From contig JANWVQ010000011.1 in the NCBI GenBank assembly GCA_025056745.1, forward strand, positions 1-51,986: DNA of 51,986 bases, given 5' to 3'. The position numbers were made by a program, and so were the translations under genes. Shown here piece after piece: positions 42,984-45,867 of the stretch (its first letter is position 1; every line of letters starts with the position of its first letter). Source of the DNA: Ignavibacterium sp. (GTDB lineage: Bacteria; Bacteroidota; Ignavibacteria; Ignavibacteriales; Ignavibacteriaceae). Below the pieces are notes generated by a model that saw only the letters and a program-made list of their open reading frames with translations, had not been told where the DNA came from and ran no database searches.

Positions 42984-43763
42984 ATGATATTCAAAAAATA
43001 CAGAAACTTTATCTTTGATCTCGATGGAACAATTTACAAAGGTGAGAGCTTTATCGATGGAGCTATTGAAACGATAAATACGATAAAAGGATTTGCTGAT
43101 AAAGTAATCTTCGTTTCAAATAAAACAACTGATCTGCCTGAGGAATATTATTACCTACTTAAATCAGCTGGTGCTAATGTTGATGAAGCTGATTTTATAA
43201 CTTCATCAATGGTTATAAAGAATTTTTTAATTAAAAATTATGTTGGAAAAAATTTTTTCTCAATTAGTGAGCAAAAGTTTATTGACTATATTTCAAAATC
43301 AGGGTTACATTACACAAGTTTATTTGATAAAGTAGATATCGTTATAATAACTTTAGACAGAACTTTTAATTTTAACAAACTTGAAATAGCAGCAAAAGCA
43401 ATTGAGAATGGAGCAAGATTTTTCGCTGCAAATATTGATGATACCTGTCCAGTCGAAAGAGGAGAAATAACTGATGCTGGTTCAATTATCTCAGCTTTAG
43501 AAAAAAGAACCCATAAAAAACTCGAGCTTCATTTCGGCAAGCCATCAGTATTTATGCAAGATTTTATTAAAAGTAAATTCAATGGAAATCTTGATAATAC
43601 TTTATTGATTGGTGATAGAATAAATACAGATATTTTTATGGCTAATCAGATGAAAATTGATTCAGCTTTAGTAAGCACTGGTATAAAGAACTATGAATAT
43701 GATTCTCCACAATATCATCCCACATATAGACTAAATTCAGTTGTGGATTTAATTAAGTGGTAA
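42984..43763 (+). CDS. HAD-IIA phosphatase (NagD/p-nitrophenylphosphatase type)
   Basis: 259 residues. HAD motif 1 is FIFDLDGTIYKG, motif 2 region IFVSNKTTDLP, and the C-terminal IGDRINTDIFMANQMKIDSALVSTG holds motif 4 with the metal-binding Asp. The insertion of a cap between motifs 2 and 3 (residues ~85-180, FFAANIDDTCP) marks class IIA. Such enzymes dephosphorylate sugar or nucleotide phosphates. It closes the three-gene PfkB-RmlD-HAD run and is followed by the tRNA locus after 100 bases. Confidence 0.92.
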   Translation: MIFKKYRNFIFDLDGTIYKGESFIDGAIETINTIKGFADKVIFVSNKTTDLPEEYYYLLKSAGANVDEADFITSSMVIKNFLIKNYVGKNFFSISEQKFIDYISKSGLHYTSLFDKVDIVIITLDRTFNFNKLEIAAKAIENGARFFAANIDDTCPVERGEITDAGSIISALEKRTHKKLELHFGKPSVFMQDFIKSKFNGNLDNTLLIGDRINTDIFMANQMKIDSALVSTGIKNYEYDSPQYHPTYRLNSVVDLIKW

Positions 43764-43813
43764 GCATCACTTCAAAAAAAATTTTTATTTATTAATCATA
43801 AACTACACTTAAC

Positions 43814-43844
43814 TTGAAAGCAGAGGTAATATTTTTTAGATTTG
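43814..43844 (+). promoter_or_regulatory. Promoter of the tRNA-Arg / GIY-YIG locus
   Basis: TTG (43814-43816), 20 bases, then TAGATTTGC (43837-43845): an excellent fit to the TTG / TAnnTTTG pattern. Transcription would start near 43851, just before the decayed tRNA half at 43867. This is where the promoter of a normal tRNA gene would be, so it probably drove the tRNA before the nuclease gene was inserted. Confidence 0.6.
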
Positions 43845-43866
43845 CTCTTAGAAAATAAATTAATAA

Positions 43867-43925
43867 GTCTAATAGCTCAGTAGGATACCTGCCCGACGGC
43901 AAGGCGGGGAGCAGCAGTTTCCTAA
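43867..43925 (+). pseudogene. Decayed 5' half of tRNA-Arg(CCT)
   Basis: Aligned to the intact tRNA at 44168, the acceptor strand GCCCCGG has become GTCTAA (one deletion, all other changes C-to-T or G-to-A). The D arm TAGCTCAGTAGGATA and the segment AGCAGCAGTTTCCTAA through the anticodon loop are identical. A GC-rich 21-base sequence (43888-43908) interrupts the D loop. The copy ends right at the anticodon loop; there is no T arm. It cannot be a working tRNA. Confidence 0.85.
43888..43908. repeat. GC-rich palindrome inserted in the D loop of the tRNA relic
   Basis: Twenty-one bases beginning CCTGCCCGACGGC and ending GGCGGG; CCTGCC can pair with GGCGGG (5 of 6). It stands out in AT-rich surroundings and looks like a small REP-type palindrome found between genes in many environmental genomes (from memory). 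The intact tRNA lacks it at this spot. Confidence 0.6.
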
Positions 43926-43929
43926 GACT

Positions 43930-44190
43930 ATGAAGTTTTATGTTTACATATTACGAAGTAAAGTAAAAGATAAGTATTATGTTGGACATACGAATAACAT
44001 AATAAGACGATTAAAAGAACATAATTCTGGAAAAAGTAAGTTTACGAAAAAATATATGCCTTGGGAATTGCTTTATTATGAAGAGTTTGAAAGTCAATCA
44101 GAAGCAATAACAAAAGAGAAATATTTTAAGACAACATCAGGAAGAAGATTAATAAAAAAATTAATAAGCCCCGGTAGCTCAGTAGGATAG
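43930..44190 (+). CDS. GIY-YIG nuclease domain protein lying between tRNA copies
   Basis: 86 residues, a complete single GIY-YIG domain of the UPF0213/YhbQ-like group. YVYILRS is the GIY motif, KYYVGHTNNIIRRLKEHN holds YIG, the catalytic Arg and the conserved His-Asn, and AITKEKYFK supplies the metal-binding Glu. The ATG follows 4 bases after the tRNA relic, without a ribosome site. The stop codon lies within the D arm of the intact tRNA, so the last residues (SPGSSVG) are encoded by tRNA sequence; 23 bases overlap. All catalytic residues look intact. Family members have been seen beside tRNA and rRNA genes; a homing or mobile role is inference. Confidence 0.88.
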   Translation: MKFYVYILRSKVKDKYYVGHTNNIIRRLKEHNSGKSKFTKKYMPWELLYYEEFESQSEAITKEKYFKTTSGRRLIKKLISPGSSVG

Positions 44191-44206
44191 AGCAGCAGTT
44201 TCCTAA
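44158..44206 (+). repeat. Right direct repeat: upstream flank plus intact tRNA-Arg 5' half
   Basis: AAATTAATAAG followed by the tRNA from its first base to the anticodon loop (ending TTTCCTAA). Counterpart of 43857-43925; the two copies bracket the GIY-YIG gene. Confidence 0.85.
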
Positions 44207-44241
44207 ACTGTTGGTCGGAGGTTCGACTCCTCTCCGGGGTA
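44168..44241 (+). tRNA. tRNA-Arg (anticodon CCT)
   Basis: 74 bases. The acceptor strand GCCCCGG pairs with CCGGGGT (one G-T at the end) and the discriminator is A. The D arm is GCTC...GAGC. The anticodon arm GCAGT-TTCCTAA-ACTGT places CCT at positions 34-36, reading AGG for arginine. The T arm is GGAGG-TTCGACT-CCTCT. The 3' CCA is not encoded. It overlaps the end of the GIY-YIG reading frame. The gap upstream is that gene, so its nearest promoter is at 43814. Confidence 0.96.
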
Positions 44242-44262
44242 CAATTAATCAGATCATTACAG

Positions 44263-45867
44263 ATGAATATTTTGAACAATAATTATCAAACAACTTCTGA
44301 AATTATTCACAAAATCGATAAAAAAGTATTTGAGACATATCCCTATGAAAATATATTAAAGCAACTCGAATGTCTTTTTAATGGCTCATACTTTTTAGAA
44401 CTTCAACGACCTGCAACTGTTGGTGATGGAATAATCAGAATTGATGAATCACAAGAAAATTTACTTTATGAGGTTTTTGAAAAAGCTAAATCAGTTGGTA
44501 GAGTTTCTAAATTTATTCCTGCCTCTGGTGCTGCAACAAGAATGTTTTCTAAAATTCATTCAGCAATAAATGAACTCGAAGACTCAGATTTTCAAACCAT
44601 ATTGAAATTATCTGAAAAAAATAGAACTGCACACTTTGCAAAAACTATATTAGAAAATATAAAACTATTTGCCTTTTGGGATGATTTGTGTTTAGTAGCA
44701 GGATTGACTGAAAATCAATTTGATTATTTACTATCAAGTAAGCCAACAGAAATTCTTAAGTTTATTATAAACTCTGATGGACTTAATTATGATAATAAAC
44801 CAAAGGCATTAATTAAATTTCATAAATATGAAAATCACTCAAGAACAGCATTTATTGAACATTTGTATGAATCCACCTTTTATCAAGATGATACTTCAAA
44901 AATTATTTCAATTCATTTTACAATTTCAGAAAATCATTTTGATCTATTCAAAGAGGAAGAAAAAAATATTCAAAACTTCGATTTGTTGAAAAATTACGTT
45001 TTTAACTTATCCTATTCATTTCAAAAGAAGTCAACTGATTCAATAACACTTACAATTGATAATGAATTATTTTTAGATTCAGATGGACAACCCATTTTTA
45101 GACCAGCTGGACACGGTGCTTTACTTGAGAATCTCAACGACTTAAAAGCTGATATCATTTTTATAAAAAATGTAGATAACGTATGTGTTGATAGATTAAA
45201 ACCAATTACTGTTAAGTATAAAAAATTACTCGCAGGATTTTTACTTTTAATTCAAAGACAAGTTTTTGAATATCTTTCGATACTTGAAAAAAAATCTGAT
45301 GATGAGCAATTACGAAATCAAATTATAAATTTTTCAGACAAAATTCTTAACATCAAAAAGCCAAATGGTTATTTCAATTGGGATACTGAAAAACAAAGAA
45401 AATTTTTATTCGACAAATTAAATAGACCAATTAGAGTTTGCGGAGTTGTTAAAAATGAAGGTGAGCCGGGTGGTGCGCCTTTTTGGGTAAGGAATCAAAA
45501 TGGAGAATTGAATTTACAAATTGTAGAACAATCTCAAGTTAATCTTCTCGATGAAACTCAAAGATTAATTTTCAACAATTCCACTCATTTCAATCCTGTT
45601 GATATTGTTGCAGGACTTAGAGATTACAAAGGGAAAAATTTTGATTTGATGAAATTCAGAGATGAAAATTCATATATGATAGTTAATAAAACAATTGGAA
45701 ATGTTAAAATAAAATCTCTTGAATTACCAGGTTTATGGAATGGAGGGATGTCAGATTGGATATCAATTTTTGTTGAAGTCCCCTCCGAAACTTTTAATCC
45801 AGTTAAAGAGGTAACAGACCTTTTAAGACAAGGTCATATCGAAAAAATTGATGAAGGTTTTATATGA
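44263..45867 (+). CDS. DUF4301 family protein
   Basis: 534 residues. LQRPATVGDGIIRIDESQ, KFIPASGAATRMFSKI, FRPAGHGALLENLNDL, DIIFIKNVDNV and RVCGVVKNEGEPGGAPFWV match the DUF4301 family of Bacteroidota and relatives. The PASGAATRMF and PAGHGALLEN segments look like nucleotide-sugar-pyrophosphorylase-type loops, so a nucleotidyltransferase-like fold is conceivable; no function is established. It starts 21 bases after the tRNA end and overlaps the peptidase gene by 4 bases (ATGA), indicating coupled translation. Confidence 0.85.
   Translation: MNILNNNYQTTSEIIHKIDKKVFETYPYENILKQLECLFNGSYFLELQRPATVGDGIIRIDESQENLLYEVFEKAKSVGRVSKFIPASGAATRMFSKIHSAINELEDSDFQTILKLSEKNRTAHFAKTILENIKLFAFWDDLCLVAGLTENQFDYLLSSKPTEILKFIINSDGLNYDNKPKALIKFHKYENHSRTAFIEHLYESTFYQDDTSKIISIHFTISENHFDLFKEEEKNIQNFDLLKNYVFNLSYSFQKKSTDSITLTIDNELFLDSDGQPIFRPAGHGALLENLNDLKADIIFIKNVDNVCVDRLKPITVKYKKLLAGFLLLIQRQVFEYLSILEKKSDDEQLRNQIINFSDKILNIKKPNGYFNWDTEKQRKFLFDKLNRPIRVCGVVKNEGEPGGAPFWVRNQNGELNLQIVEQSQVNLLDETQRLIFNNSTHFNPVDIVAGLRDYKGKNFDLMKFRDENSYMIVNKTIGNVKIKSLELPGLWNGGMSDWISIFVEVPSETFNPVKEVTDLLRQGHIEKIDEGFI

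Follow-up and report, generated by a model that had tools for sequence, protein, structure and literature searches.

The window analysed here, a 51,986-nucleotide stretch of DNA from an Ignavibacterium sp. genome (assembly GCA_025056745.1, contig JANWVQ010000011.1), contains an intact tRNA-Arg(CCT) gene that is preceded by a partial copy of itself and by a small GIY-YIG nuclease ORF. The partial copy, the ORF, and the intact tRNA (43866–44242) share one direction, and the locus is composed of the following features.

43837–43844, + strand: TAGATTTG, which fits TAnnTTTG and probably served the ancestral tRNA-Arg gene as its promoter, now upstream of the partial copy
43866–43887, + strand: partial tRNA-Arg copy, positions 1–22 ('A'), with the acceptor part diverged and the D-arm part identical
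43888–43908, + strand: hairpin-like insert H, CCTGCCCGACGGCAAGGCGGG, 21 nt and G+C-rich, in the D-loop of the partial copy between positions 22 and 23
43909–43925, + strand: partial tRNA-Arg copy, positions 23–39 ('b'), identical to the intact gene
43930–44190, + strand: bare GIY-YIG nuclease ORF (Pfam PF01541) of 86 aa, the nuclease domain being the first ~80 aa
44168–44242, + strand: intact tRNA-Arg(CCT), uninterrupted

The region from 43866 to 43925 is a copy of the first 39 positions of tRNA-Arg, located ~300 bp upstream of the intact gene and matching it at 15/15 positions in 43873–43887 and 17/17 positions in 43909–43925. The front flank is also alike in both copies over 10–20 nt (20 nt at 85%). 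Acceptor positions 1–7 have diverged, and the 21-nt insert has no counterpart in the intact tRNA-Arg and is unique in the window genome. The copy is thus both decayed and interrupted; the original prediction had recognized the decay and overlooked the hairpin. The gene had also been described as nested exactly between the two copies. It is indeed the sole gene there, but the ORF overlaps the intact tRNA by 23 nt, such that its last seven codons and its TAG stop (44188–44190) are situated inside the tRNA. Neither a tyrosine nor a serine integrase is encoded between the copies. The region 43700–44330, which includes the leader, contains no structured RNA known to Rfam besides tRNA, which, together with the uninterrupted state of the functional tRNA, rules out a group I intron in the tRNA gene.

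The window ORF encodes a member of the GIY-YIG nuclease domain family. It matches the Pfam model at 4e-20, and the AlphaFold prediction consists of a single confident GIY-YIG domain (pLDDT 94.5) with no further domain; a separate DNA-binding domain is absent. The catalytic residues are intact, as originally proposed (Tyr6, Tyr17, Gly19, Arg27, His31, and Glu63), and across 45 relatives Tyr17, Arg27, His31, and Glu63 are invariant and Tyr6 and Gly19 near-invariant. The nearest solved folds are those of UPF0213 proteins (BH0048, 1zg2; EF2693) and SLX1, with I-TevI a weaker match. The nuclease is under purifying selection, with dN/dS values of about 0.07–0.15 in pairs with measurable dS, including about 0.13 between the window nuclease and that of a second Ignavibacterium locus (L096).

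The original prediction called for an empty site in related genomes, and the downstream gene (DUF4301) served as the query to locate the orthologous locus within the genus. In genome G041 (locus L048), which encodes the DUF4301 protein closest to that of the window, the order is HAD gene, tRNA-Arg, and DUF4301 with nothing between, and the promoter-like block known from the window, here AATATTTTTTAGATTTG (TAATATTTTTTAGATTTG-like), precedes the intact tRNA. This empty site supports the proposal that an element inserted without an integrase and that the tRNA stayed functional. The same locus in G060 (L049) contains a nuclease-less scar, a 3′ part-copy that lies downstream and carries an insert in its T-loop, and in G019 (L050) an array in which a tRNA 5′ part, a hairpin, and a nuclease gene are repeated three times ahead of the intact tRNA. 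At L096, where the upstream gene order is as in the window, there are at least two units, the second starting at the contig end. A single locus thus occurs in four states: empty, scarred, with one unit, and as an array. The 21-nt H of the window is an abbreviated version of the H found in L096 (30 nt) and G019 (~61 nt). The nucleases of the window and L096 are 70% identical, as are the neighbouring HAD genes (70%), and this equal similarity suggests that the nuclease pair was vertically inherited. The restored tRNA-Arg is identical in the carrier G019 and the nuclease-free G060. A recognition site wholly inside the tRNA would consequently be cut in the carrier too, so that recognition would need the flank or structure, or else cutting of the donor would be weak. 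The tRNA-Cys locus shows the opposite pattern, with a full nuclease gene in G041 and a truncated gene in the window genome (G000).

Association with tRNA genes is not confined to this locus. In the window genome, 3/3 small GIY-YIG genes are at tRNAs. The second follows tRNA-Asn (L002, G000:C136, 1190–1806) amid three part-copies that all bear TCCGTCAGYYGACGGA-type palindromes, more copies of which are also present there. The third is the truncated gene, a 29-codon remnant directly after tRNA-Cys (L005, G000:C184, 1–410) whose longer, full counterpart is found at L052 (G041:C130); the tRNA-Gly beside the remnant has a part-copy with TCCCAGTGGGA. Sites of TCCGTYRRYYRACGGA in this genome fall within tRNA part-copies or the tRNA-Asn cluster in 10 of 11 cases. 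The complete genome G019, from the same genus, encodes 16 small GIY-YIG genes in six clusters, each 6–49 bp from an intact tRNA (Leu, Ser, Pro, Asn, Arg, and Ser), and two long GIY-YIG proteins at 6 and 29 kb from a tRNA. By way of comparison, 0.6% of random 213-bp features in G019 would be placed no more than 150 bp from a tRNA, and the recurrence at tRNAs therefore excludes chance placement. Other genomes of the family contain some GIY-YIG genes away from tRNAs, many of them in other clades.

A search of 84,980 species genomes with the window protein alone, blind to tRNAs, yielded 80 loci. An intact tRNA is situated within 150 bp in 61/80, on the same strand in 61/61, and most of the remaining loci are array members or are at contig ends. 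The hosts include Bacteroidota, Ignavibacteria, Chlorobiota, Cloacimonadota, Planctomycetota, Patescibacteria, Neomarinimicrobiota, WOR-1, and a Thioalkalivibrio MAG. Many further GIY-YIG genes bracketed by tRNA part-copies, a search for which had been suggested, were found. The observation of a GIY-YIG gene between a partial and an intact tRNA-Arg 5′ half is real, and this kind of arrangement recurs at many tRNAs. Array units are identical in G026 and in G001. On a protein tree of 85 columns with many unresolved forks, 29 changes of target amino acid are counted, as compared with a mean of 50.1 and a minimum of 45 in 500 shuffles; judged from this tree, target tRNAs are conserved within nuclease lineages. 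Of the YhbQ-like proteins from the same genomes, which form an outgroup clade, 0/6 are at tRNAs. Carriage by phages or plasmids was considered and rejected, as annotated phage and plasmid records gave distant matches only (≤44% identity) and viral contigs gave three weak loci. A defence system was likewise rejected, the PADLOC matches being weak and partial.

Inspection of the loci reveals two layouts. In the 5′-type, one or more units of 5′ part, H, and nuclease precede the intact tRNA; in the 3′-type, the intact tRNA is followed by one or more units of nuclease and part-copy with H. At 25 of 29 5′-type tRNA-Arg loci, the partial copy is split by H at one D-loop site (ATA^G, between positions 22 and 23), where GGATA precedes H and the tRNA resumes at GAGC or its equivalent, and most of the exceptions are shifted or doubled forms of this break. 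Similarity to the tRNA stops before the ORF at a variable point, about 10 to 60 nt. The original prediction of entry at the anticodon loop, where the window copy happens to end, thus does not hold: the fixed junction is in the D-loop. The sequence of H varies while its self-complementarity is kept, with at least 4/5 terminal pairs in 45/66 inserts vs 3.3% of controls. Nor is there support for the suggestion that the element brought a foreign 5′ half. The A segment (first 21–23 nt) comprises 25 different sequences across the 29 loci and is exactly the host's own tRNA in 20 of them, unlike H and the ORF, which are similar between hosts. This suggests that the tRNA part is host-derived, by duplication, or is kept identical by gene conversion.

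The TAnnTTTG motif is the Bacteroidota-type −7 promoter motif. Similar motifs are situated upstream of 16/34 partial copies vs 3/34 intact tRNAs at 5′-type loci, which suggests that the intact tRNA at such loci probably needs transcription through the nuclease. At 3′-type loci, the ORF often starts right after a terminator-like hairpin and T-run (T-run in 20/37). At L161 (1959–2601), the intact tRNA-Ala is preceded by six nuclease-less part-copies of 95 nt, every one of them bearing a TCCCGAT..ATCGGGA hairpin, and is followed by nuclease units. L106 is composed of an intact tRNA-Arg, the gene, and then a full tRNA copy broken only by the hairpin; the order is reversed at L105, which carries the sister nuclease. 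An 18-nt T-loop insert, TCCGAAGGATGCTTTGCA, occurs in tRNA-Pro part-copies, and its reverse complement in tRNA-Ser(TGA) part-copies (L034 1914–1962, L029, and L079); this insert is a mobile double mini-hairpin.

Taken together, these observations favour a homing-like, tRNA-targeted selfish element that consists of a bare GIY-YIG gene and the short hairpin H and that makes a second copy of the tRNA half of its host, a reading to which we assign a probability of about two in three. As read from the genomes, the comparisons establish the layout, the fixed site of H, and, for the orthologous locus, its empty, scarred, and tandem forms, and likewise the retention of the target tRNA by nuclease lineages, the same-strand orientation, the purifying selection, and the position of the apparent original promoter upstream of the partial copy. 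The element would sit at a fixed site of a tRNA gene (in the window, the D-loop between positions 22 and 23), giving the order A-H-b-ORF-A-B, in which A and B are the two tRNA parts, the displaced part is interrupted by H, and the downstream A-B is seamless and functional. The nuclease would cut tRNA-gene DNA, perhaps at hairpin-forming arms, and repair of the break would involve either homologous recombination with a copy that carries the element or a duplication of the tRNA half of the host. Such repair would install H and the ORF, and its repetition could yield the arrays. The old tRNA promoter probably drives transcription of both the nuclease and the intact tRNA, in which case loss of the transcription unit would cost the host. 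To judge by its layout, the element leaves a functional tRNA with the displaced part remaining, a feature of integrative elements in tRNA genes. Additionally, the empty allele in relatives and the apparent retention of the target by each lineage are two characteristics of homing endonucleases, and we infer that the element works like a free-standing homing endonuclease, although no loss of its own target site upon insertion is evident.

How a protein of this size would find its site may be considered tentatively. In a widespread and so far undescribed class of mobile elements, the bare SLX1-like GIY-YIG domain could locate tRNA genes via nucleic-acid structure, in place of a DNA-binding domain in the protein, acting on tRNA-arm hairpins in DNA, while H, or a leader RNA of tRNA half and hairpin serving as a guide or protein-binding scaffold, marks or protects the displaced copy; we regard this proposal as unlikely.

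An alternative, raised already with the original prediction, is tandem duplication in situ, in which quasi-palindromic tRNA genes give rise to part-copies through replication slippage or recombination, palindromes gather in the redundant copy, and the GIY-YIG gene is a passenger that was captured once and then inherited. In line with this explanation, 20/29 loci have a part-copy with the sequence of the host tRNA, and there is microhomology between the flank and the 3′ end of the ORF. Part-copies without a nuclease, which had been named as an outcome that would speak for simple duplication, do occur (arrays at L060, L089, and L161; the scar at L049), indicating that duplication can arise or persist without the gene. 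Single cases are accommodated, but the recurrence, the hairpin at one site, and the conserved target are not. A passenger gene would not stay with its target tRNA across numerous phyla, hold one orientation in 61/61 loci, show strong purifying selection, or bear H at one D-loop site in hosts of different phyla, and we consider this explanation improbable.

A comparably poor prospect is that the hairpin itself is the mobile unit, REP- or MITE-like, and that an SLX1-like nuclease mobilizes or cuts hairpins; tRNA arms would then be hit, and the survivors would be those with a duplicated tRNA part. Several sequence classes of H are self-complementary, H is found in ORF-less arrays and away from tRNAs, the 18-nt T-loop insert is present in both orientations (tRNA-Pro and tRNA-Ser copies), and SLX1, a branched-DNA nuclease, is among the nearest solved structures. 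The idea that the palindromes are exclusive to tRNA loci had to be rejected, since like palindromes were found elsewhere: 39/72 sampled TCCCGACNNGTCGGGA sites have no detectable tRNA-like flanks, and CCTGCCTGCCGGCAGGCAGG-type (CCTGCC-type) palindromes, noted among L226–L241, occur at 17 places in Paucihalobacter (G062), most of those sampled not near a tRNA. H may therefore have its own mobility. However, in palindrome-rich genomes (such as G051, 0/6 at tRNAs) the palindromes away from tRNAs have no tie to a nuclease gene, and the target-specific nuclease lineages suggest a preference for tRNA sequence. A domesticated host function, with the nuclease or its tRNA-like leader serving in regulation or protection of the tRNA operon, would be in keeping with the purifying selection and the probable co-transcription with the tRNA but is highly implausible in view of the patchy presence at orthologous tRNAs in one genus, the empty sites, the decayed copies (truncated at tRNA-Cys in G000 and full in G041), and the identical arrays.

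If the selfish-element reading is correct, a recurrent class of ~300-bp elements resides inside essential tRNA genes in many phyla, which would account for tRNA part-copies and for GIY-YIG proteins with tRNA-encoded tails and would provide a system for asking how an 80-residue nuclease picks one tRNA gene and how its carrier survives. A search of the open PMC library yielded no account of chromosomal GIY-YIG elements embedded in tRNA genes and none that connects GIY-YIG nucleases to partial tRNA copies, to palindromes, to REP sequences, or to Ignavibacteria. The recurrence in many phyla suggests that selfish elements inside tRNA genes form a class that has received little attention.

The element shares features with several known systems. 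UPF0213/YhbQ and SLX1 provide the nearest solved folds, but the YhbQ-like clade is not linked to tRNAs (0/6) and SLX1 acts together with SLX4. REP/RAYT and MITE-type repeats are likewise short dispersed palindromes tied to a small nuclease gene; the window element, in contrast, encodes a GIY-YIG rather than a Y1 tyrosine nuclease and occupies a fixed place inside tRNA copies. Integrase-dependent islands and prophages also insert at tRNA genes, restore the functional gene, and leave a displaced part, whereas the window element lacks an integrase and an att core, measures ~0.3 kb with the nuclease only, has a hairpin at its junction, and forms arrays. The closest parallel is SegB, a free-standing GIY-YIG homing endonuclease whose gene adjoins tRNA genes and which cuts within tRNA genes. 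In phage T4, segB lies between tRNA-Arg and tRNA-Ile (PMC2988022). In phage T6, GIY-YIG breaks in tRNA genes lead, via microhomology, to tandem repeats of tRNA and segB, which arise by recombination between the tRNA 5′ end and the nuclease 3′ end (PMC13096335). SegB of T6 thus offers a working precedent for the proposed cut-and-repair mechanism. The window element differs in being chromosomal rather than phage-borne, in its hairpin-interrupted tRNA copy, a feature not described for the tRNA genes at segB, in a protein reduced to the ~80-aa catalytic domain, and in having as its kin many tRNA-specific lineages across bacterial phyla. It is best read as akin to, yet distinct from, phage SegB.
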